Origin: Pelolinea submarina | GTDB lineage: Bacteria; Chloroflexota; Anaerolineae; Anaerolineales; Anaerolineaceae | Reading direction: 5' to 3' | Length of the DNA stretch: 64,000 nucleotides | Assembly (NCBI RefSeq): GCF_003966975.1 | Contig: NZ_AP018437.1 | Coordinates: 620,001 to 684,000 of the forward strand | Shown: in pieces, positions 5,747 to 37,069 of the stretch | Position numbering within the stretch: the stretch's first letter is position 1 | Layout of the letters: each line of letters starts with the position of its first letter | The notes under the pieces: model-generated | The model's input: the letters and a program-made list of their open reading frames with translations, nothing else | Told to the model about the DNA's origin: nothing | Databases searched by the model: none | Position numbers and translations under genes: made by a program

Positions 5747-6853
5747 ATGAGTGAAGTAACTAACCAACCCAGAAGGAAATCTCCAGTTGAATCCCTTTCC
5801 CAGGAGAGTCGGGAGAAATTAAAGAATTTAAACGCGGACATTATATCAACTCGCAAAATTGGCCGCGTTGAGAGATTTTTCGGGAAAGAAAATTATCGGA
5901 TATTAAAAGGGTTGGTAACCACCCCTACCTCAATTGTGGGGTTAATCTTAATTGCTTTCTTTGTCTTGATTGCCCTGGCAGCACCTGTAATTGCCCCACC
6001 CCTCCCCAACACAGACCCTTATCAGATGCCTCGCGATGGATATAGCGCTCAACCCAAACCGCCAATGAGCGAATGGAAAAGTGATGTTCCCCCCACACCG
6101 GGTTGGTACACATTCTTTACCGGTAAGGAGGAATGGGTGCATTTGATGGGTACTTCCTCCAATGCTTACGATATTTTCTATGGAGTCATTTGGGGTACTA
6201 GGACTGCATTGAAAACCGGCGTTATTATCGAATTCATCACTTTGCTGATAGGCATCCTGGTTGGATCTTTCGCGGCATATTACGGAGGTAAAGTTGATAA
6301 TATCGTCATGCGGATAGTTGACATCTTCATGACATTGCCGTTCCTGTTGGCAGCATTGATTCTGGCTGCTGTATTAATGCCTGTGTTGGGAAGGAGCACG
6401 GTTCCTTCTGTGATTGCCTTGACTGCCTTCGGTTGGATGAATTATGCCCGTTTGATCCGCGGCGATATCCTGACCGTAAAAGAACGCGATTATGTATTGG
6501 CAGCGCGGGTTATTGGTGTGAAAGACCGCAATATTCTATTCAAACACATTATCCCAAATGCCATCTTCCCCACACTCGTCATTGCATCGATGGATATCGG
6601 TACTTACGTACTTAATTTTGCTGCTCTGTCGTTTTTGGGAATTGGCACGCAAATTGGGTATGCGGATTGGGGCCAGATTCTCAGCTTCGCACGTGACTGG
6701 ATAACCCAATTAGGCACCTATTGGTATATTGTTGTCTATCCCGGCATTGTGCTGGTTTTGTTTGTACTGGGTTGGAATTTGGTAGGAGATGCAGTCCGCG
6801 ATGTGATGGATCCGAAATTGCGGAAATTGCAGGAAAGCTCTCAAGAAGGATAA
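5747..6853 (+). CDS. dppC: Peptide ABC transporter permease, DppC type
   Basis: This 368-residue protein is the partner permease. It has a cytoplasmic N-terminus of about 60 residues, a first helix (IVGLILIAFFVLIALAAPVI) and a longer than usual extracytoplasmic loop rich in Pro (about residues 85-125), followed by the conserved HLMGTSSNAYDIF segment (family form 'HplGTD..GrD'). The EAA loop is RDYVLAARVIGVKDRN...HIIPNAIFP. A GAGGTGA SD at 5732-5738 sets the start. It is the last gene of the unit. No terminator is evident before the tRNA gene, about 75 bases downstream. Confidence 0.92.
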   Translation: MSEVTNQPRRKSPVESLSQESREKLKNLNADIISTRKIGRVERFFGKENYRILKGLVTTPTSIVGLILIAFFVLIALAAPVIAPPLPNTDPYQMPRDGYSAQPKPPMSEWKSDVPPTPGWYTFFTGKEEWVHLMGTSSNAYDIFYGVIWGTRTALKTGVIIEFITLLIGILVGSFAAYYGGKVDNIVMRIVDIFMTLPFLLAALILAAVLMPVLGRSTVPSVIALTAFGWMNYARLIRGDILTVKERDYVLAARVIGVKDRNILFKHIIPNAIFPTLVIASMDIGTYVLNFAALSFLGIGTQIGYADWGQILSFARDWITQLGTYWYIVVYPGIVLVLFVLGWNLVGDAVRDVMDPKLRKLQESSQEG

Positions 6854-28420: not shown

Positions 28421-29878
28421 ATGAGTGACGAACAAAAATACGCTATCAGCCAATACCCGGATGTGGAAGCAGTTTACCGGCAGCTGAACAACCTGATCCG
28501 CCAGCCTTTGCTGGAAATCCGTCCGGAAAAACTGCAAGCTTATCTGGATTATTTTGAGACTTCCTGCCGCCGCTCCAAGGAACTGACCACGGAAGCCAAG
28601 CAATATATTCCGGGGGGCGTACAGCATAACCTGGCTTTTAACTATCCTTTCCCGATCGCCATCGAAAAAGCCGAGGGCGCCTATTTATGGGATGTGGACG
28701 GCAACCGTTACATTGACTTCCTGCAGGCGGGCGGCCCAACCGTGTTGGGCAGCAATTACGCGCCGGTGCGGGAAAAGATTTTTGAATTACTCAAAACCTG
28801 CGGCCCGGTCACCGGACTGTTTCACGAGTATGAGCTCGAACTGGCCAAGCTGGTCAACCGACTGATGCCCTCCATCGAGATGTTCCGTATGCTGGGTTCA
28901 GGCACTGAAAGTGTAATGGCCGCCATCCGCGCGGCGCGCGTGTTCACCGGCAAGAAATTCGTCATCAAGGTCGGCGGGGCTTATCACGGCTGGAGCGACC
29001 CCATGCTGTACGGGCTGCATGTACCCGGCACCGGCCGCTTCGAGGCCAAGGGCATTCCGCGCGGCGCTTCCGCATCCACGCAGGAGTTTTTCCCCAATTC
29101 CATCGCGGCTTTGCGCCGGCACCTGATCTTCAACCGCCTGCGCGGCGGGACGGCGGCCGTCATCCTGGAACCGCTGGGGCCGGAATCCGGCACGCGCCCG
29201 GTGCCTTTTGATTTCAACCGGCAGGTGCGCAAGCTGTGCGACGAGTTCGGCGCGCTGTTGATCTTCGATGAAGTGGTTACGGGTTTCCGCGTCGGCATGG
29301 GCGGCGCCCAGGGTTACTTCGGCGTCGAACCCGACCTGACGGTTTTCGGCAAGTGCATCACCGGCGGCTATCCCATGGCCGGCGGGGTGGGCGGGCGTGC
29401 GGATGTGGTCAGCACGTTTGCGGCCGGTATCGGCGGTACGGGCGAGCGCGCCTACATTGGTGGTACGCTCTCGGCCAACCCGCTTTCCTGCGCGGCCGGC
29501 TACTTTGCCCTGCAGGAAATGGAGCGCACCAACGCGCCCGTCATCGCGGGCCGGGCCGGCGACCGGCTGACAGCCGGTTTGCAGGCCATCATTGAAAAAT
29601 ACCACCTGCCTTTCGTAGCCTTCAACCAGGGCTCGATTGTGCATCTGGAGACTTCGGCAGTCATGCTGCTGGATCTGCACAATCCGTTCAAGCTGCTGAA
29701 AGAATTGAAACCACGTAAACACATGATGGAGCAGATGGGCGCGGCTTACATGGCCGAAGGCCTGATCACCCTGGCGGGTTCGCGTATGTACACCTCGATG
29801 GCCGATACGGATGCGGTAATCGACGATGCTTTGGAGCGCTTTGAAGTGGTACTTGCGTCTTTTGAGGGAGTTGGATAA
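28421..29878 (+). CDS. Class III PLP-dependent aminotransferase, glutamate-1-semialdehyde mutase-like
   Basis: A 485-residue PLP enzyme. The body matches GSA-aminomutase/class III transaminases: YIPGGVQHN, DVDGNRYIDFL, LGSGTESVMAAIRAARVFTGK, YHGWSD, LLIFDEVVTGFRVGMGG and the PLP lysine in LTVFGKCITGGYPMA. An N-terminal extension of about 60 residues precedes the usual start. As hemL is normally near heme genes, its place between an aldolase and a transporter argues for a catabolic transaminase or aminomutase acting on an amino sugar or amino alcohol. SD GAGGAG. Substrate unknown. Confidence 0.88.
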   Translation: MSDEQKYAISQYPDVEAVYRQLNNLIRQPLLEIRPEKLQAYLDYFETSCRRSKELTTEAKQYIPGGVQHNLAFNYPFPIAIEKAEGAYLWDVDGNRYIDFLQAGGPTVLGSNYAPVREKIFELLKTCGPVTGLFHEYELELAKLVNRLMPSIEMFRMLGSGTESVMAAIRAARVFTGKKFVIKVGGAYHGWSDPMLYGLHVPGTGRFEAKGIPRGASASTQEFFPNSIAALRRHLIFNRLRGGTAAVILEPLGPESGTRPVPFDFNRQVRKLCDEFGALLIFDEVVTGFRVGMGGAQGYFGVEPDLTVFGKCITGGYPMAGGVGGRADVVSTFAAGIGGTGERAYIGGTLSANPLSCAAGYFALQEMERTNAPVIAGRAGDRLTAGLQAIIEKYHLPFVAFNQGSIVHLETSAVMLLDLHNPFKLLKELKPRKHMMEQMGAAYMAEGLITLAGSRMYTSMADTDAVIDDALERFEVVLASFEGVG

Positions 29879-29915
29879 AAATAGGGATACTTTTCAACTT
29901 GAGGAGGAGTTCCAA

Positions 29916-31124
29916 ATGAAAAACAACTACAAAGTGTATGGATACCGCTGGGTTGTTTTGGCCACCTATATGCTGGTCAACCTGACCATGCAGATGTTGT
30001 GGATCACTTATGCACCCATCACCAGCCTGGCGGCTGATTTCTATGGCGTGAGTGATTTGAAAATCGGCCTTTTATCCATGTCTTTCATGATTGCATTTAT
30101 CCCCTTATCCATTCCGGTTTCCTGGATGATTGACCGTTACGGGTTCCGCCTGGCAGTAGGTATCGGTTCCGTGATGATGGGCGCGTTTGGCGTTTTGCGC
30201 GGACTGGCGGGCGCCAATTACAGCCTGGTGCTGGCCAGCACAATCGGCATCGCTGCCGCCCAGCCGTTTCTGCTGAACACCTGGACAACCGTTCCGGCTA
30301 AGTGGTTCCCCAAGGATGAACGTGCCACCGCTGTCGGCCTGGTCACCCTGGCCAACCTGGTCGGCACAGGACTGAGCATGGTACTGACCCCCATCCTGGT
30401 CGAGGGCGGCATGCCCATCCCGCAAGTCCAATTGCTTTATGGCGGCATCTCTGCGGTTGCCGCCATTTTGTTTGTCCTGACCGCGCGTGAAACACCTCCG
30501 ACGCCGCCCTGCGAGGATGGCGAAGAAGTACGCGCTTTGATGCTGGATGGATTGAAGCACGCGCTGACCGTTAAACCCTTCCTTTACTACGTATTTGTCT
30601 CCTTTGTGGGGTTGGGAATCTTCAATGGCGTAACCACCTGGGTGGAAAACATCATCAATCCGCGCGGTTTCACGCCCACCGATGCCGGCACCTTGGGGGC
30701 TTTGATGCTGGTGGGCGGCGTGCTGGGCGCGGTTATCATCCCGATGTTTTCGGATAAAACCCAGAAACGCCAGATCTTCATGCTGACCAGTATTTTGTTG
30801 GCGATACCGGGGTTGATCGGGTTGATCTATGCTAAAAGTGCCTGGCTGTTGTTTGCCTCGGCCTTTGAAATGGGCTTTTTCCTGGTCAGCGTGAACCCCA
30901 TCGGTATGCAGTATGCCTCTGAGGTGACCCATCCCACACCGGAAGGGACTTCCAATGGATTGATCCAGCTCTTCGGTCAGGCTTCCGTAGTGTTCGTTTA
31001 CATCATGGAAGCATTGAAAACTGCGGACGGGTCTTTTACCTGGTCGCTCCTGCTGGCCGCGGCGCTGTTGGTTGTGTGTGCTTTATTGATAACTCAAATG
31101 AAGGACCCGGTGAAATCTGATTAA
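29916..31124 (+). CDS. Major facilitator superfamily transporter
   Basis: A 402-residue carrier with 12 hydrophobic segments. The MFS motif A-like loop after helix 2 reads PVSWMIDRYGFRLAV, with a matching loop in the second half (PMFSDKTQKRQIF). The overall pattern (YAPITSLAADFYGVSDLKIGLLS and the following helices) resembles FLVCR/CynX-type carriers. ATG 29916 with GAGGAGG upstream is chosen; the frame is open earlier into the aminotransferase gene but without a start signal. In the operon it should import the compound that the aldolase, aminotransferase and kinase process. Confidence 0.88.
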   Translation: MKNNYKVYGYRWVVLATYMLVNLTMQMLWITYAPITSLAADFYGVSDLKIGLLSMSFMIAFIPLSIPVSWMIDRYGFRLAVGIGSVMMGAFGVLRGLAGANYSLVLASTIGIAAAQPFLLNTWTTVPAKWFPKDERATAVGLVTLANLVGTGLSMVLTPILVEGGMPIPQVQLLYGGISAVAAILFVLTARETPPTPPCEDGEEVRALMLDGLKHALTVKPFLYYVFVSFVGLGIFNGVTTWVENIINPRGFTPTDAGTLGALMLVGGVLGAVIIPMFSDKTQKRQIFMLTSILLAIPGLIGLIYAKSAWLLFASAFEMGFFLVSVNPIGMQYASEVTHPTPEGTSNGLIQLFGQASVVFVYIMEALKTADGSFTWSLLLAAALLVVCALLITQMKDPVKSD

Positions 31125-31140
31125 AAAGTGAGGACTGCGT

Positions 31141-32712
31141 ATGCCCGAAAAGACAATATTGGCCATAGACCTGGGAACTTCCAGCATGAAAGTCGCGCTG
31201 GTGGATATCCGGGGAAACGTATTGGGTTGGGAAAGTGAGCCGATATCGCTTTTCGTCACGCCGGATGGCGGTGTGGAACAATCGCCGCAGGAATGGTGGG
31301 ACGTATTCCTGCGGGTTGCAAAGAAATTAATTAAAAAGAATCCCAAAGCTGCACAGGAAGTCATTGCCCTGTGCAGCTCTACACAGGGCGAAAGCACCAT
31401 CGCGGTCGACCGCGATGGCCAACCACTGGGCAACTGCATCCTGTGGATGGACATGCGCGGGGCGGACGCCCTGCACCGCCAGCTGCGCGGGACGGTGCAT
31501 CTGAATGACATCGGCATGCGCGACCTGCTGCGCTTTGTTCGCCTGACGGGCGGGCTGCCCTCGCAAACCGGCAAAGATCCGGCCGGGCACATGCTTTACA
31601 TTCGCGATCAGCAGCCGCGCATCTACGAACAAACTTATAAATTCCTCAACGTGTTGGATTACATCAACCTGTGCCTGACCGGCCATTTCGTGGCTACGGT
31701 GGATTCCATCCTGACTTCCTGGGTAACCGACAACCGCGACCCGAAAAATATTCATTACGACGACCGCCTGATCGATACGCTGGGCATCGACCGCGAGAAA
31801 TTACCGGAAATTTTGGCCTGCGCGGACGTGGTGGGCAAACTGAAGCCGCAGGTGGCGGACGAGTTGGGCTTGCCGCGCGAGGTGCGCGTGGTGGCCGGTT
31901 CGATCGATAACACGGCCGCGGCCATTGGCGCGGGTGCTGTACGGGATTACGAACTTCATCTGTATATTGGCACGTCTTCCTGGATGGCGGCTCACGTTCC
32001 CTACAAGAAAACCGACGTGTTCACTTCACTGGCTTCGCTGCCCTGCGCCATTCCGGACCGTTACTTATTGACGGCCCTGCAGGCCACCGCCGGCGGCAAC
32101 CTGACTTTCCTGCGCGACAACGTCCTCTATCACAAAGATGAATTGCTGCAGGAAGCAGACGTACCGGATATCTTCAAAGTATTGGATCAGATCGCCGAAA
32201 GGCCGCCGGCCGGCAGCAACGGGGTGATTTATACTCCCTGGATTTGGGGCGAACGCGCTCCGGTGGAAGACCGCACCCTGCGCGCGGGCCTTTATAACCT
32301 GTCGCTTAATAACAATCGTGAGGACATTATCCGCGCTTTTCTGGAGGGTATTGCGTTCAATACCCGCTGGCTGCTGGCCCCGGTTGAAAAGTTCATGAAG
32401 CGCAAAGTGCAGCGGCTGAACATCGTGGGGGGTGGCGCGCAGTCGGACGTGTGGTGCCAGATCTTCGCGGATGTCCTCGATTTCGAGGTGCGCCAGGTAC
32501 AGGATCCTGTTTACGCCAACGCACGCGGCGCGGCCTGGATTGGTGCGGTGGGTATGGGAGAGCTCGCTTTTCCCGAAGTGGAAAATATGATCAAATTCCG
32601 GCGGATTTATACCCCCAACGAGTACAATAGGGATGTGTACGATAATCACTTTGACGTTTTTATCAATATCTACAAGAACATGAATAAGATCTACCGGAAT
32701 CTTAACGCCTGA
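31141..32712 (+). CDS. FGGY-family carbohydrate kinase
   Basis: A 523-residue ASKHA-fold kinase that phosphorylates a sugar or polyol with ATP. It shows the first phosphate loop ILAIDLGTSSMKVALVD, the CSSTQGESTIAVD and ILWMDMRG substrate segments, then VVAGSIDNTAAAIGAGAV and the C-terminal adenosine region LNIVGGGAQSDVWCQIFADVL. It is nearest in layout to xylulokinase-like members; substrate not predictable. It is the last gene of the TetR-controlled operon, 16 bases after the transporter. Confidence 0.92.
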   Translation: MPEKTILAIDLGTSSMKVALVDIRGNVLGWESEPISLFVTPDGGVEQSPQEWWDVFLRVAKKLIKKNPKAAQEVIALCSSTQGESTIAVDRDGQPLGNCILWMDMRGADALHRQLRGTVHLNDIGMRDLLRFVRLTGGLPSQTGKDPAGHMLYIRDQQPRIYEQTYKFLNVLDYINLCLTGHFVATVDSILTSWVTDNRDPKNIHYDDRLIDTLGIDREKLPEILACADVVGKLKPQVADELGLPREVRVVAGSIDNTAAAIGAGAVRDYELHLYIGTSSWMAAHVPYKKTDVFTSLASLPCAIPDRYLLTALQATAGGNLTFLRDNVLYHKDELLQEADVPDIFKVLDQIAERPPAGSNGVIYTPWIWGERAPVEDRTLRAGLYNLSLNNNREDIIRAFLEGIAFNTRWLLAPVEKFMKRKVQRLNIVGGGAQSDVWCQIFADVLDFEVRQVQDPVYANARGAAWIGAVGMGELAFPEVENMIKFRRIYTPNEYNRDVYDNHFDVFINIYKNMNKIYRNLNA

Positions 32713-32756: not shown

Positions 32757-33293
32757 ATGGATGGTAATGACATTTTCTACCCACGCATGCCTGAAGTGTT
32801 CCTGCCCGCGGATATTGCCGATGTTTTTAATCGGGCTCGTTCCGCTGCGGCGGACCTGACGCAGGATGCCGACGGCGTCTATCACAGGCAAATTATTATT
32901 GTTACGCCCGGGCGGCTCCTGATTAAGAAAGAATGCCCTTTGGCTGCTGACCTTCAACCGGCTCAAATTGCTTTGCTGGAAAAATTCGTGCCACGCAAAC
33001 CAACCTTGCAAATTAGTGTTATTGCCTATACCGAACTGGAAGCATTGAAAAAAGATATGCGCCGGGCAATTCCCTTCGTTGATTATCTCCTCGGATTCGC
33101 GTCGCTGGGCCATACCGTGTGGGTTTTTGAAGGCCACCCCGCTGCATTGGAAGAAGGATGCCGCGATGCTGATCTGCTATTAGTCGACAGCGGTATGCTC
33201 CCGGAACTGGAAAAGAATCCTGACTGGCAGGCAACTGTAGAGCAGGCAATGCGTGTTCCGGAAATCAAACTGGTTTCTCGTTCCGGAAATTAG
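32757..33293 (+). CDS. Conserved-looking protein of unknown function
   Basis: A 178-residue soluble protein I do not recognise. The N-terminal part (FYPRMPEVFLPADIADVFNRA) is followed by strand-rich text (HRQIIIVTPGRLLIKKECPL), then IQISVIAYTELEALKKD-type segments, and a C-terminal half that alternates strands and helices (DYLLGFASLGHTVWVFEGHP, DADLLLVDSGMLPEL), like a small Rossmann-type domain. No SD is visible; the TATAAT 9 bases upstream suggests a nearly leaderless mRNA. It is separately transcribed, with its own terminator at 33331. Confidence 0.6.
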   Translation: MDGNDIFYPRMPEVFLPADIADVFNRARSAAADLTQDADGVYHRQIIIVTPGRLLIKKECPLAADLQPAQIALLEKFVPRKPTLQISVIAYTELEALKKDMRRAIPFVDYLLGFASLGHTVWVFEGHPAALEEGCRDADLLLVDSGMLPELEKNPDWQATVEQAMRVPEIKLVSRSGN

Positions 33294-33378: not shown

Positions 33379-34119
33379 CTAAGGATAGTCCCTATTGTCA
33401 ACCAGGTTGTATGTGATGAAGTCATAAGTACCCAGTATGTAATCCATGCAATAGAACTTGACAGCGATCTTATCTTTGTATTGCAGGTCGGACGGGATAC
33501 TCAGCGTCAATGTCTGCACACCGCCGTCGCTGGTGAAGCCTGTAACCTCGTACCAGTTTTCAGACGCCATGGCACCATCTTTCATGTACACTGCCCATCT
33601 TACATTCGAGGGGAAGTTGGACGTAACGACTGTGATGGTTGCGCCGGCGTTGACTGCCGTAACCTTGAAGGTTGGGAAACCATTCTCAAGGTGGTTGTAG
33701 GTTGTATCATCATTGTCTTCCCAATATTTATTGGCATACGGATTGAAATTGCTGTCGTCGTTATAGAAGAAATTATAGGGCGGATCGTATGATCCTTCGA
33801 CGTTCTCGAACCGGATGTTGATGATATCCTCGTTGGCCAGTTCCTCCGGAATTGGGAACTCAGCATTGAACGTGCCACCGGAATTGGTGGTTATTTTGGA
33901 AACCAGATACCCGCCAAGTCCCAGTGTGCCATTTCTATTCATCAGGATATAGAATGTTTCATTGGATGGGAAGTTCTCCATCCGAACATATACGGATTCA
34001 TTCCTGTTCACGCCCACAATGGTTGTGGTCATGCCTTTTGAATTGGGTTGTGCAGCTACAGGCACGGCAACCAATAGCAGCATAGCCATGGCTATTATGA
34101 GAGAAAATCTCTTTTTCAT
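33379..34119 (-). CDS. Secreted protein with two tandem beta-rich repeats
   Basis: A 246-residue exported protein of unknown function. The signal peptide spans residues 1-24 (MKKRFSLIIAMAMLLLVAVPVAA, then Q). The mature part contains an internal duplication: each repeat begins NFPSN, continues with a short strand ending in Met-x-Asp/Arg-Gly, then IP.EL/DL followed by D.I.I.F/V.F and an aromatic tail ending with YN. The second repeat starts about 120 residues after the first. The fold is probably immunoglobulin-like. ATG 34119 with AAAGGAGG is chosen over an upstream in-frame ATG. It stands alone between two terminatorless gaps. Confidence 0.72.
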   Translation of the reverse strand: MKKRFSLIIAMAMLLLVAVPVAAQPNSKGMTTTIVGVNRNESVYVRMENFPSNETFYILMNRNGTLGLGGYLVSKITTNSGGTFNAEFPIPEELANEDIINIRFENVEGSYDPPYNFFYNDDSNFNPYANKYWEDNDDTTYNHLENGFPTFKVTAVNAGATITVVTSNFPSNVRWAVYMKDGAMASENWYEVTGFTSDGGVQTLTLSIPSDLQYKDKIAVKFYCMDYILGTYDFITYNLVDNRDYP

Positions 34120-34301
34120 AGGTCCTCCTTTAGTATTAAATGACCATTTTTTTGACAATTTTCTACCTGTTATGTTGCAAGAAACGTACCCGTTTATAAA
34201 AATAGGGTAATTTTCGGCGTGAAATTACCCCTTGTGCGAATACATTATAACGATTTAAATTTGGTAAGGCAATAGGTGTAAAAATATCCGGGGAAAGCAG
34301 T

Positions 34302-35408
34302 TCATTCCAGAACACCTTCATTAACATAGCGGGTTAACTCGCCTACGCTTAAATTGCGGATACCCAGTTTTTCAACTGTCCGGCCGCGGCGGTTGTAGTC
34401 CGTCTTGTGGATGATGCAGGCCAGGCGGATGATGCTGTCCATGGCGCGTACGGAAATCCCGTATGCCATGCCCAGCGAAGCAATCGGCAACAAGCTCATG
34501 GGAATATCTTCGAAAATATAACGGTGAGCCAGGGTGGAAGGGGCTTTGATGCCGTAATAACCGGTTTGGTTGTGGATGGCTTCGTAAAGGGTGGCGCCGG
34601 AAACATTGTAAGCCAATTCAAGCCATTCCATGGCGGTGCGGGCCCGAATGCCCAAAGCGGACGCAACCGTTACCCGTTCCCGGTCAAGCGATTCAAGCAC
34701 GGTGGCTACTGAAGGGGTTACGCCATCGATATAGAATTCAAAATCACCGTGGGTGGATTCGATGCGTCCGGCGTTTAGAATGGTCAGGGCAGGGTGAAAG
34801 ATTGCGCCCATATTATTCAGCCCGGTATTTAAAACATTTACGCCATCGATAAATTGCGGATAAACGTCGTTGATAGCATCCAATACAATCTGTGTGTTGA
34901 AAGCCGGCAGGGCTGCCAGAGGAACAGCCTCCTTGATGCGGAAGATGCGCGCCTGGGCCGGGCCGTCCGAACGGCTGGCATAAATGAAGGTCTCTGCCTC
35001 AGCCAGGACGATCTTGGCTTCGCAGCCTTCCCGGCGCAGGATCATATCGAATTCGATCGCGCCGCAGGTGCGCCCCGGGTTTAACAGCACAATCTGACCG
35101 TCTTTCAAATGCGGCGCCATGGCCTTGGCCAGATCAGCGTGCGCGGAGGAGGGCACGACCAGCATGATCACCTGAGCGTTGTGCAGAGCTGTTTTCATGT
35201 CGGCGGTGGCTTTTTTTAATTCGCCAAAACCGTGCGGGCCGCCGGGGTAGCTTTCCAATTCGATACCGCGGCGTTTGCTAACCACTTCTATGTGAGCTTC
35301 CGTGCGGTTATAAAGCGTGACTTCTTTGCCCATCAGTGCCAAATGGGCTGCCATTGATTTCCCGCCGTGACCTGCTCCGACCACTGTGTAACGTGTTGGG
35401 TACGTCAT
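34302..35408 (-). CDS. Opine dehydrogenase-like NAD(P)-dependent oxidoreductase
   Basis: A 368-residue enzyme of the octopine/nopaline dehydrogenase family, which reversibly joins an amino acid and a keto acid into an N-(carboxyalkyl) amino acid. The Rossmann loop is VVGAGHGGKSMAAHLALMG (Gly11, 13, 16). The C-terminal catalytic domain shows NTGLNNMGAIFHPALTILNAGRIE with the catalytic His, followed by GDFEFYIDGVTPSV and YYGIKAPSTLAHRYIFEDIPM. It is transcribed 20 bases after the cobalamin-binding protein gene. The partner genes suggest amino-acid breakdown rather than opine synthesis, but direction is inference. Confidence 0.88.
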   Translation of the reverse strand: MTYPTRYTVVGAGHGGKSMAAHLALMGKEVTLYNRTEAHIEVVSKRRGIELESYPGGPHGFGELKKATADMKTALHNAQVIMLVVPSSAHADLAKAMAPHLKDGQIVLLNPGRTCGAIEFDMILRREGCEAKIVLAEAETFIYASRSDGPAQARIFRIKEAVPLAALPAFNTQIVLDAINDVYPQFIDGVNVLNTGLNNMGAIFHPALTILNAGRIESTHGDFEFYIDGVTPSVATVLESLDRERVTVASALGIRARTAMEWLELAYNVSGATLYEAIHNQTGYYGIKAPSTLAHRYIFEDIPMSLLPIASLGMAYGISVRAMDSIIRLACIIHKTDYNRRGRTVEKLGIRNLSVGELTRYVNEGVLE

Positions 35409-35428
35409 ATTGAATCCTCCTGATCAAA

Positions 35429-37069
35429 TTACAAAAACTTGGCTAAACGGTCTTTTTCTGCGATGATTTTGCCAGTCCCATCAATGGCCTCACAGGAGCC
35501 GTTGATAATACGGGTGATAATGTTCCCCGGAGCAAATGGGTTATTTTTTAGGTGAGGTGCATCTAAAATACCTAGCCGCACTGCTTCGGTGAGATTTTGC
35601 GGATCGGTAAATGGATCTCCCTGGCTATTGCTGCCCAGGTTGTGAATGGCCTGCAGGGTCAGCCGGGCTTCCGCCATCAGGTGATTCTTGCGGTGTTGGA
35701 TGGCAGGATCCTGCAGCATATCCGGTTGTCCGGCCAGCGCGTTTTCAATGGAGCGGCGGGCCATCAGGCAGGCTTCGATGATGTCGTCGGCAGTGGCGGC
35801 GTGGTGCGCTTCGGTATGGCCGACGATGTGCACGATATGAGGGTGCAGGCTCATTTGCAGGTAGATGCTGGCGGAAAGGTGTGCCCGTGCCGCGGCCGGT
35901 TCCAATGGATAACTGAGCAGGCCAGTGCGTGTTTGCCGCCAAATAGTGAAATTCTCATTTTCCAATTCCGCGCCCATTTCCAACAGGGCAGCCATTTTCG
36001 CTAAATCCATCGCGTCGGAGGTTCCCGGCGGGCTGTTGAACATCATTTGAGCAATGTAATTGCGCACACCGAAAGCGCGCGCGTTATAGGCGGCCAGATA
36101 AGCCGACACCACAAAAATCACATCCGGCGCGTCGCGCATGCCCCAATGGTGCGGTTCATTGAGTTCCACCGGAATATCATGCGCGCCATACCATTCCATG
36201 ACCTTTTGGTGCTCGCGGATGCTGCCTTCCACATCCCACGGCCCGCGGCCATCCATACGATTGAACCAGAATAAAGGTATGGCTGCCCAGGCATTGTGCA
36301 TGCTTTCCACATACATTTCGGCCAATTGAATGAAATCATCTGTGCCTGAGTAGGTGCGTAATAATGGAAAATTTCCGCGGCGGCTGGCCGCGTATAAATC
36401 GCGATAATCCTGTGCGGTGCGCACCGGAACACCGCCCGCGCCGGTGCGGCGGGCATCCTGCCTTTCCGGGTGAAAGAAGTTCTCCTGCGCGTCCTGGTCG
36501 ATTCCCAGGGAAATGACGTCCAGCGCGCGGACTTCCGCGATCTTTTGGATGCCGGCGATAGTCGCTTCCATACTGGGCAGGCCGAAATGGTGGCGCAGCA
36601 GCGGGTAAGGCGCTTTCCAGAGAATGCGTTCCACTGTGGTAGTCGGATAATCCAACGCGGATTTAGCTTGAACCTTTTCGCCTTTCAGGAAAGCCATGAT
36701 TTCTTCGTAATTTTGGCTACCGTCGAAAATGGCATCAAAGAATCCCAAGGCTTCGGCGCGTTCGGCCACTGGGGGAGTGCCGCCAAAAGCGAATTGCACG
36801 CCGCGTTCACGTAAATGGTCGGCGCTTTCGGCAAATTGCGCCAGCAGGCGTTCACCGGTTTCTGGCGTCAGGCGATAGGAAACGGCCAGCAGATCGGCGT
36901 GATGTTCCTCGGCAGCTTTGATCGCGGTTTGGATGGGCGTTGCCGGTCCAAGAAAAACGGTATGCCAACCCGCCTGTTCAGCCATCCGCAGGAAATTCAT
37001 GACTCCGGCCACGTGGACGCATTCTCCTAAAGCGCAACCGACGACTGTCTTCCCGTTTTTTACCATCAT
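35429..37069 (-). CDS. Cobalamin-binding domain fused to a mutase-like TIM barrel
   Basis: A 546-residue protein. Residues 1-125 follow the B12-binding Rossmann pattern: ALGECVHVAGVMNFL, where His19 and Gly22 match the DxHxxG motif but the Asp position is Cys17; then SYRL (Ser64) and FAFGGTPP (Gly96, Gly97). Residues about 150-500 resemble the barrel of glutamate mutase epsilon-type enzymes (IPLFWFNRMDGRGPW, VELNEPHHWGMRDAPDV, AARAHLSASIYLQ). Together this suggests an adenosylcobalamin carbon-skeleton mutase or aminomutase in one chain. Function is not established. First gene of a two-gene unit with the opine-type dehydrogenase. Confidence 0.72.
   Translation of the reverse strand: MMVKNGKTVVGCALGECVHVAGVMNFLRMAEQAGWHTVFLGPATPIQTAIKAAEEHHADLLAVSYRLTPETGERLLAQFAESADHLRERGVQFAFGGTPPVAERAEALGFFDAIFDGSQNYEEIMAFLKGEKVQAKSALDYPTTTVERILWKAPYPLLRHHFGLPSMEATIAGIQKIAEVRALDVISLGIDQDAQENFFHPERQDARRTGAGGVPVRTAQDYRDLYAASRRGNFPLLRTYSGTDDFIQLAEMYVESMHNAWAAIPLFWFNRMDGRGPWDVEGSIREHQKVMEWYGAHDIPVELNEPHHWGMRDAPDVIFVVSAYLAAYNARAFGVRNYIAQMMFNSPPGTSDAMDLAKMAALLEMGAELENENFTIWRQTRTGLLSYPLEPAAARAHLSASIYLQMSLHPHIVHIVGHTEAHHAATADDIIEACLMARRSIENALAGQPDMLQDPAIQHRKNHLMAEARLTLQAIHNLGSNSQGDPFTDPQNLTEAVRLGILDAPHLKNNPFAPGNIITRIINGSCEAIDGTGKIIAEKDRLAKFL

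Follow-up and report, generated by a model that had tools for sequence, protein, structure and literature searches.

A B12 protein gene and an opine dehydrogenase gene in tandem

The window, a stretch of 64,000 nt of Pelolinea submarina contig NZ_AP018437.1 (GCF_003966975.1, positions 620,001 to 684,000), carries two closely spaced genes on its minus strand, for a protein with a B12-binding domain and a mutase-like barrel (hereafter the B12 protein) and for an opine-type dehydrogenase (ODH). The features of the pair are the following:

35429..37069, minus strand: gene of the B12 protein, 546 aa in a single chain (ORF; Pfam B12-binding match above cut-off)
36680..37069, minus strand: N-terminal Rossmann-like B12-binding domain, residues 1-130 (Pfam match over residues 9-115; matches to corrinoid proteins and GlmS)
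37004..37021, minus strand: putative cobalamin motif C17-V-H19-V-A-G22 (Cys at the Asp position of DxHxxG; invariant in the alignment)
35435..36658, minus strand: barrel resembling glutamate mutase epsilon, residues 138-545 (AlphaFold2 model, match to 1cb7_B, hhalign to GlmE)
35416..35421, minus strand: Shine-Dalgarno-like AGGAGG, 7 nt upstream of the ATG of the ODH gene
34302..35408, minus strand: ODH gene, 368 aa, Octopine_DH family (Pfam, match to 1bg6, catalytic residues)
35070..35072, minus strand: ODH Arg113, equivalent to Arthrobacter position 111, acidic-substrate signature (Arg in 65/66 B12-linked ODHs; role from PMC10787698)
34806..34808, minus strand: ODH Gly201, equivalent to Arthrobacter position 198, second signature residue (Gly in 66/66 B12-linked ODHs; role from PMC10787698)

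Both ORFs lie at the positions assigned to them in the preliminary description, on the minus strand. The ODH gene starts 20 nt downstream of the B12 gene, with the AGGAGG in the gap, and this spacing suggests that the two are co-transcribed. Elsewhere in the window, genes for a glutamate-1-semialdehyde mutase-type aminotransferase, an MFS transporter and an FGGY kinase stand in a row on the plus strand (28421-32712). Together with an M20 peptidase and sugar-ABC genes, they were considered as pathway members and rejected, not being conserved beside the pair. Two further ORFs, of 178 aa (32757-33293, plus strand) and 259 aa (33379-34158, minus strand), gave zero Pfam matches; the start of the latter resembles a signal peptide.

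Pfam recognised the B12-binding domain (36.3 bits, cut-off 32.1). The match of the B12 protein to MutE (PF06368) remained sub-threshold (17.3 bits against a cut-off of 26.6), and a few relatives barely exceed this cut-off. As had been noticed beforehand, the cobalamin motif retains His and Gly and carries Cys17 where DxHxxG has Asp. CVHVAG was invariant in an alignment of 35 sequences, and all 74 distinct relatives have Cys at this position with His and Gly retained; the Asp is present in four GlmS proteins and in three further B12 proteins that the window genome encodes.

The resemblance of the barrel to glutamate mutase epsilon, proposed earlier from the sequence, was borne out by structure prediction. 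The AlphaFold2 model built on the 35-sequence alignment (pLDDT 86.7) matched best to 1cb7_B, the glutamate mutase epsilon chain, with a Z of 31.7, an rmsd of 3.2 and 377 aligned residues, and GlmE came top in both Foldseek and VIA-align. Lysine and ornithine aminomutases followed (Z 25.6-29.0) and thereafter acyl-CoA mutases. Similarly, hhalign of the family with nine GlmE sequences gave an E-value of 4.6e-9 over 367 columns. Fusion into one chain, also singled out before, does apply here but is not unique, since a Roseibium protein annotated as methylaspartate mutase E is a single chain as well. This protein of 664 aa, with a B12-binding-like N-terminus, is encoded on Roseibium aggregatum plasmid NZ_CP045635.1 (L128 997-3698) between genes for an aromatic amino acid lyase and for an amino acid racemase, and may be part of a further mutase cluster not yet described. 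A plasmid of Streptomyces sp. NBC_01343 (L129 1028-4191) carries a cobalamin-dependent protein and a 'methylaspartate mutase', about 34% identical to GlmE, adjoining genes for a transporter substrate-binding protein and an aspartate-semialdehyde dehydrogenase.

Conservation of the pair and its branches

The two genes occur together. Among 298 genomes of the class, 93 have both, 5 the B12 protein only, 11 the ODH only and 189 neither, so that the B12 family is present in 98 genomes. The Fisher p of 1e-57 for this co-occurrence is indicative only, because the surveyed genomes are mutually related. An ODH gene lies at most 3 kb from 83 of the 93 long B12 genes; of the remaining ten, nine are on contigs without any ODH and one has it 3.0 kb away. 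Across 28 neighbourhoods, each 12-24 kb long, conservation was confined to the B12 and ODH genes, the next family being found in 7, so the unit consists of two genes. The pair is present in other families of the phylum too. The distance matrix of the B12 protein correlates with that of the ODH (r 0.86 overall, 0.52 within the close branch), part of which would be expected from shared ancestry alone. The coupling of the two enzymes, which the preliminary description had supposed, is strongly supported: their genes adjoin and co-occur, their sequences diverge in a correlated way, and two distant branches conserve the pair.

These branches are a short form of ~545 aa (52-76% identity) and a long form of ~1220 aa (30-40% identity), the C-terminal half of which is MutL (PF13941, 261-293 bits). 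The MutL-fused branch, at ~35% identity, still adjoins an ODH gene, and a separate MutL gene stands beside the short-form mutase in L048 and L121-L124. Since MutL is described as a chaperone that reactivates glutamate mutase (PMC4682846), its fusion or adjacency in relatives supports an AdoCbl mutase function. No MutL was found in the window genome, which encodes cobalamin adenosyltransferases of two families. No plasmid relative of the mutase was found, the plasmid matches covering only the MutL part, and neither the window nor the loci of ten relatives gave a cobalamin riboswitch at gathering score. In L048 (2225-4428) and L121-L124, two different ODH genes lie in tandem beside mutase and MutL. 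Near a mutase-MutL fusion, L107 encodes a second ODH (position 6001, plus strand, 373 aa), which, having Cys at 113 and Asn at the position of catalytic His205, may be inactive or altered in function.

Branch-B and tier-2 loci variously add an RpiR regulator, a peptide-type ABC importer, a gamma-glutamyltransferase, a C45 hydrolase, a D-aminoacylase-type amidohydrolase and an Orr-like racemase. In L045 (988-5713), L046 (1-5160), L109 (3924-7000) and L122 (1276-4100), mutase and ODH have as neighbours a racemase of this kind, a gamma-glutamyltransferase and an amidohydrolase or a C45 enzyme. The larger clusters suggest that a peptide-like compound is taken up and degraded, and these genes are a lead toward the substrate of such clusters.

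Substrate class and relation to glutamate mutase

The ODH belongs to Octopine_DH (PF02317, 160 bits), and its nearest solved relative is the Arthrobacter N-(1-D-carboxylethyl)-L-norvaline dehydrogenase (1bg6, 254 bits). Rossmann residues G11 and G13 and catalytic His205, Arg296 and Asp301 are intact, Arg296 being the NADH-sensing Arg; the Rossmann motif, Octopine_DH domain, catalytic His/Asp and NADH-sensing Arg that characterise opine dehydrogenases are all present. The two enzymes share fold family and catalytic His/Arg/Asp, whereas the Arthrobacter enzyme has Ala111/Asn198 and apolar substrates in contrast to Arg113/Gly201 in the window ODH.

Six hot-spring ODHs (mODHs), closest to the same Arthrobacter enzyme, prefer L-Asp or L-Glu with pyruvate (Telek et al. 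2024, PMC10787698). Arg at 111 and Gly at 198 govern this preference, which double mutants switch, and Arg35 was linked to NADPH; only L-amino acids were accepted in the published assay, and kinetics on L-Asp were weak (KM 0.5-25 mM, kcat 0.1-1.6 per second; PMC10787698). The window ODH resembles them in its identity of ~37-40% to the Arthrobacter enzyme, in R113 and G201 at the signature positions, in Arg35 and in the catalytic residues. It differs in being known from sequence, while the mODHs have measured activity and were published with no gene neighbourhood or partner (PMC10787698). The Arg/Gly signature was carried by 65/66 B12-linked ODHs of both branches versus 6/21 unlinked ones. Ornithine or lysine, considered as substrates in the preliminary description, are thus less likely than an acidic amino acid. 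The weak kinetics of the mODHs on L-Asp leave room for another native acidic substrate, and a 3-methylaspartate-like mutase product would fit.

Glutamate mutase binds its substrate by an arginine claw, R66/R100/R149, and GlmE G68 contacts adenosine (PMC9545868). By hhalign, G68 and E330 of GlmE correspond to invariant G163 and E420 of the B12 protein. We take E330 to be an adenosine contact too. The claw aligns with invariant H161/Q195/Y240; R159 and R238 precede these positions by two residues on two of the strands, which makes a register shift possible at this identity of 17%. All 35 aligned sequences share R159, R238 and R275, and the pocket residues around R275 fall in a low-confidence part of the AlphaFold2 model. 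With the claw out of place by alignment, the B12 protein is probably not glutamate mutase itself: mutase chemistry has probably been retained and the substrate changed. Since the claw aligns with H161/Q195/Y240, the argument for an acidic mutase substrate comes from the ODH only.

Glutamate mutase (GlmS/GlmE with GlmL/MutL) and the present system have in common a B12 domain, a homologous barrel, MutL (here in relatives) and a second enzyme beside the mutase in a small operon. They are unlike in that the B12 protein is one chain with CxHxxG, other residues at the aligned claw positions and a score below the MutE Pfam cut-off, and that the partner is an opine dehydrogenase rather than methylaspartate ammonia-lyase. 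No gene of the latter enzyme adjoins the pair, and the window genome gave only a 29-bit partial match to its C-terminal model, which most control genomes match as well. We therefore do not assign the B12 protein to glutamate mutase: it has the fold, and it lacks the motif Asp, a Pfam score above the cut-off and the ammonia-lyase partner. No characterised mutase family with a known partner was found to absorb it.

A probable two-enzyme amino-acid module and its alternatives

We favour, at a probability of about 0.6, a two-enzyme amino-acid module of an AdoCbl carbon-skeleton mutase and an acidic-amino-acid opine dehydrogenase. The B12 protein would be a single-chain, glutamate-mutase-like AdoCbl radical enzyme that binds cobalamin base-off/His-on with H19 as lower cobalt ligand. 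Acting on an acidic amino acid, it would shift a carbon fragment and so interconvert straight-chain and methyl-branched forms, and its product or substrate would be shared with the adjacent ODH. This enzyme would use NAD(P)H to join the shared compound to pyruvate, or NAD(P)+ to free it from an N-carboxyethyl conjugate. In relatives with importers, hydrolases and racemase, the same two steps would take place within uptake and breakdown of a peptide-like compound. Here we infer that AdoCbl is used, that the protein acts as a mutase, that the substrate is acidic and which way the flow runs (opine oxidation or formation), and a 3-methylaspartate-like compound would be the most attractive substrate candidate. 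Points against the module are the Cys for the motif Asp, the alignment of the claw with H161/Q195/Y240, the lack of MutL in the window genome and the tandem ODHs of certain loci. The Orr-like racemase of certain clusters also fits poorly with mODHs that take only L-amino acids, unless it supplies the L form. Of the new pathway proposed in the preliminary description, the coupling of the enzymes and the glutamate-mutase-like fold stood, while cobalamin binding, the B12 rearrangement and the opine oxidation are predicted.

The mutase could instead work on the opine rather than on the free amino acid, the order of the two enzymes then being reversed; the opine, an acidic amino acid carrying an N-(1-carboxyethyl) group, would be a tricarboxylate that the ODH handles. 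The apparently displaced claw, invariant R159, R238 and R275, which could hold a larger polyacid, and the constant presence of the ODH speak for this reading, which we nevertheless consider unlikely: the residues around R275 lie in the low-confidence region of the model, and no AdoCbl mutase is known to act on a secondary amine of the opine kind. Less probable still is a route without opine, in which a racemase-made D-amino acid undergoes B12 rearrangement and then oxidative deamination. C. difficile Orr-OraSE-Ord indeed runs from racemase to B12 mutase to dehydrogenase (PMC8803604), an Orr-like racemase accompanies the system in L045, L046, L109 and L122, and aminomutases are the second-best fold match. 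But few loci have this racemase, which scores 290-328 bits where the Orr cut-off is 480, and the two-gene form has none; OraE uses PLP and another dehydrogenase, and the ODH has the signature of measured acidic-amino-acid opine dehydrogenases. No OraS was recognised, and the 28 neighbourhoods held no further conserved gene for a subunit such as the small one of B12/PLP aminomutases.

Two other explanations appear highly improbable. One is a staphylopine-type opine metallophore, made or imported by the ODH and its neighbours, with the B12 protein modifying a side chain. SBP5/Dpp-type transporter genes near branch-B ODHs and a weak CntA match (112 bits, cut-off 800) would agree with it; however, the substrate-binding protein scores highest as Opp4A, and a conserved transporter is absent from the two-gene form. 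The other, to which we give equally little credit, would make the B12 protein a corrinoid methyltransferase or a non-catalytic B12 sensor, in line with the Cys for the motif Asp and with its best NCBIfam matches, methyltransferase corrinoid proteins at a weak 23.8 bits (cut-off 370). It ranks low because the barrel matches AdoCbl mutases best and MutL is fused or adjacent to the mutase in relatives.

Returning to the acidic-amino-acid module, it may by analogy be read as working like an amino-acid mutase pathway. A more specific version, which we advance tentatively and hold to be rather less probable than the module as such, is that a new AdoCbl mutase family (CxHxxG, single-chain or MutL-fused) converts an acidic amino acid by rearrangement into a 3-methylaspartate-like compound, the native amino substrate of mODH-type ODHs; this would be a new two-step pathway, common in Chloroflexota, and explain the orphan hot-spring ODHs. 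The mutase-opine dehydrogenase module is real and conserved, and apparently undescribed: our literature search returned no description of such a pair and no paper naming glutamate mutase and opine dehydrogenase together. To our knowledge, few AdoCbl carbon-skeleton mutases are known. About one third of the surveyed genomes of the class have the pair, as do a few further families of Chloroflexota, so the pathway is more than a marginal one. The pair offers a physiological role, directly testable, for ODHs that were characterised for biocatalysis without a known function.
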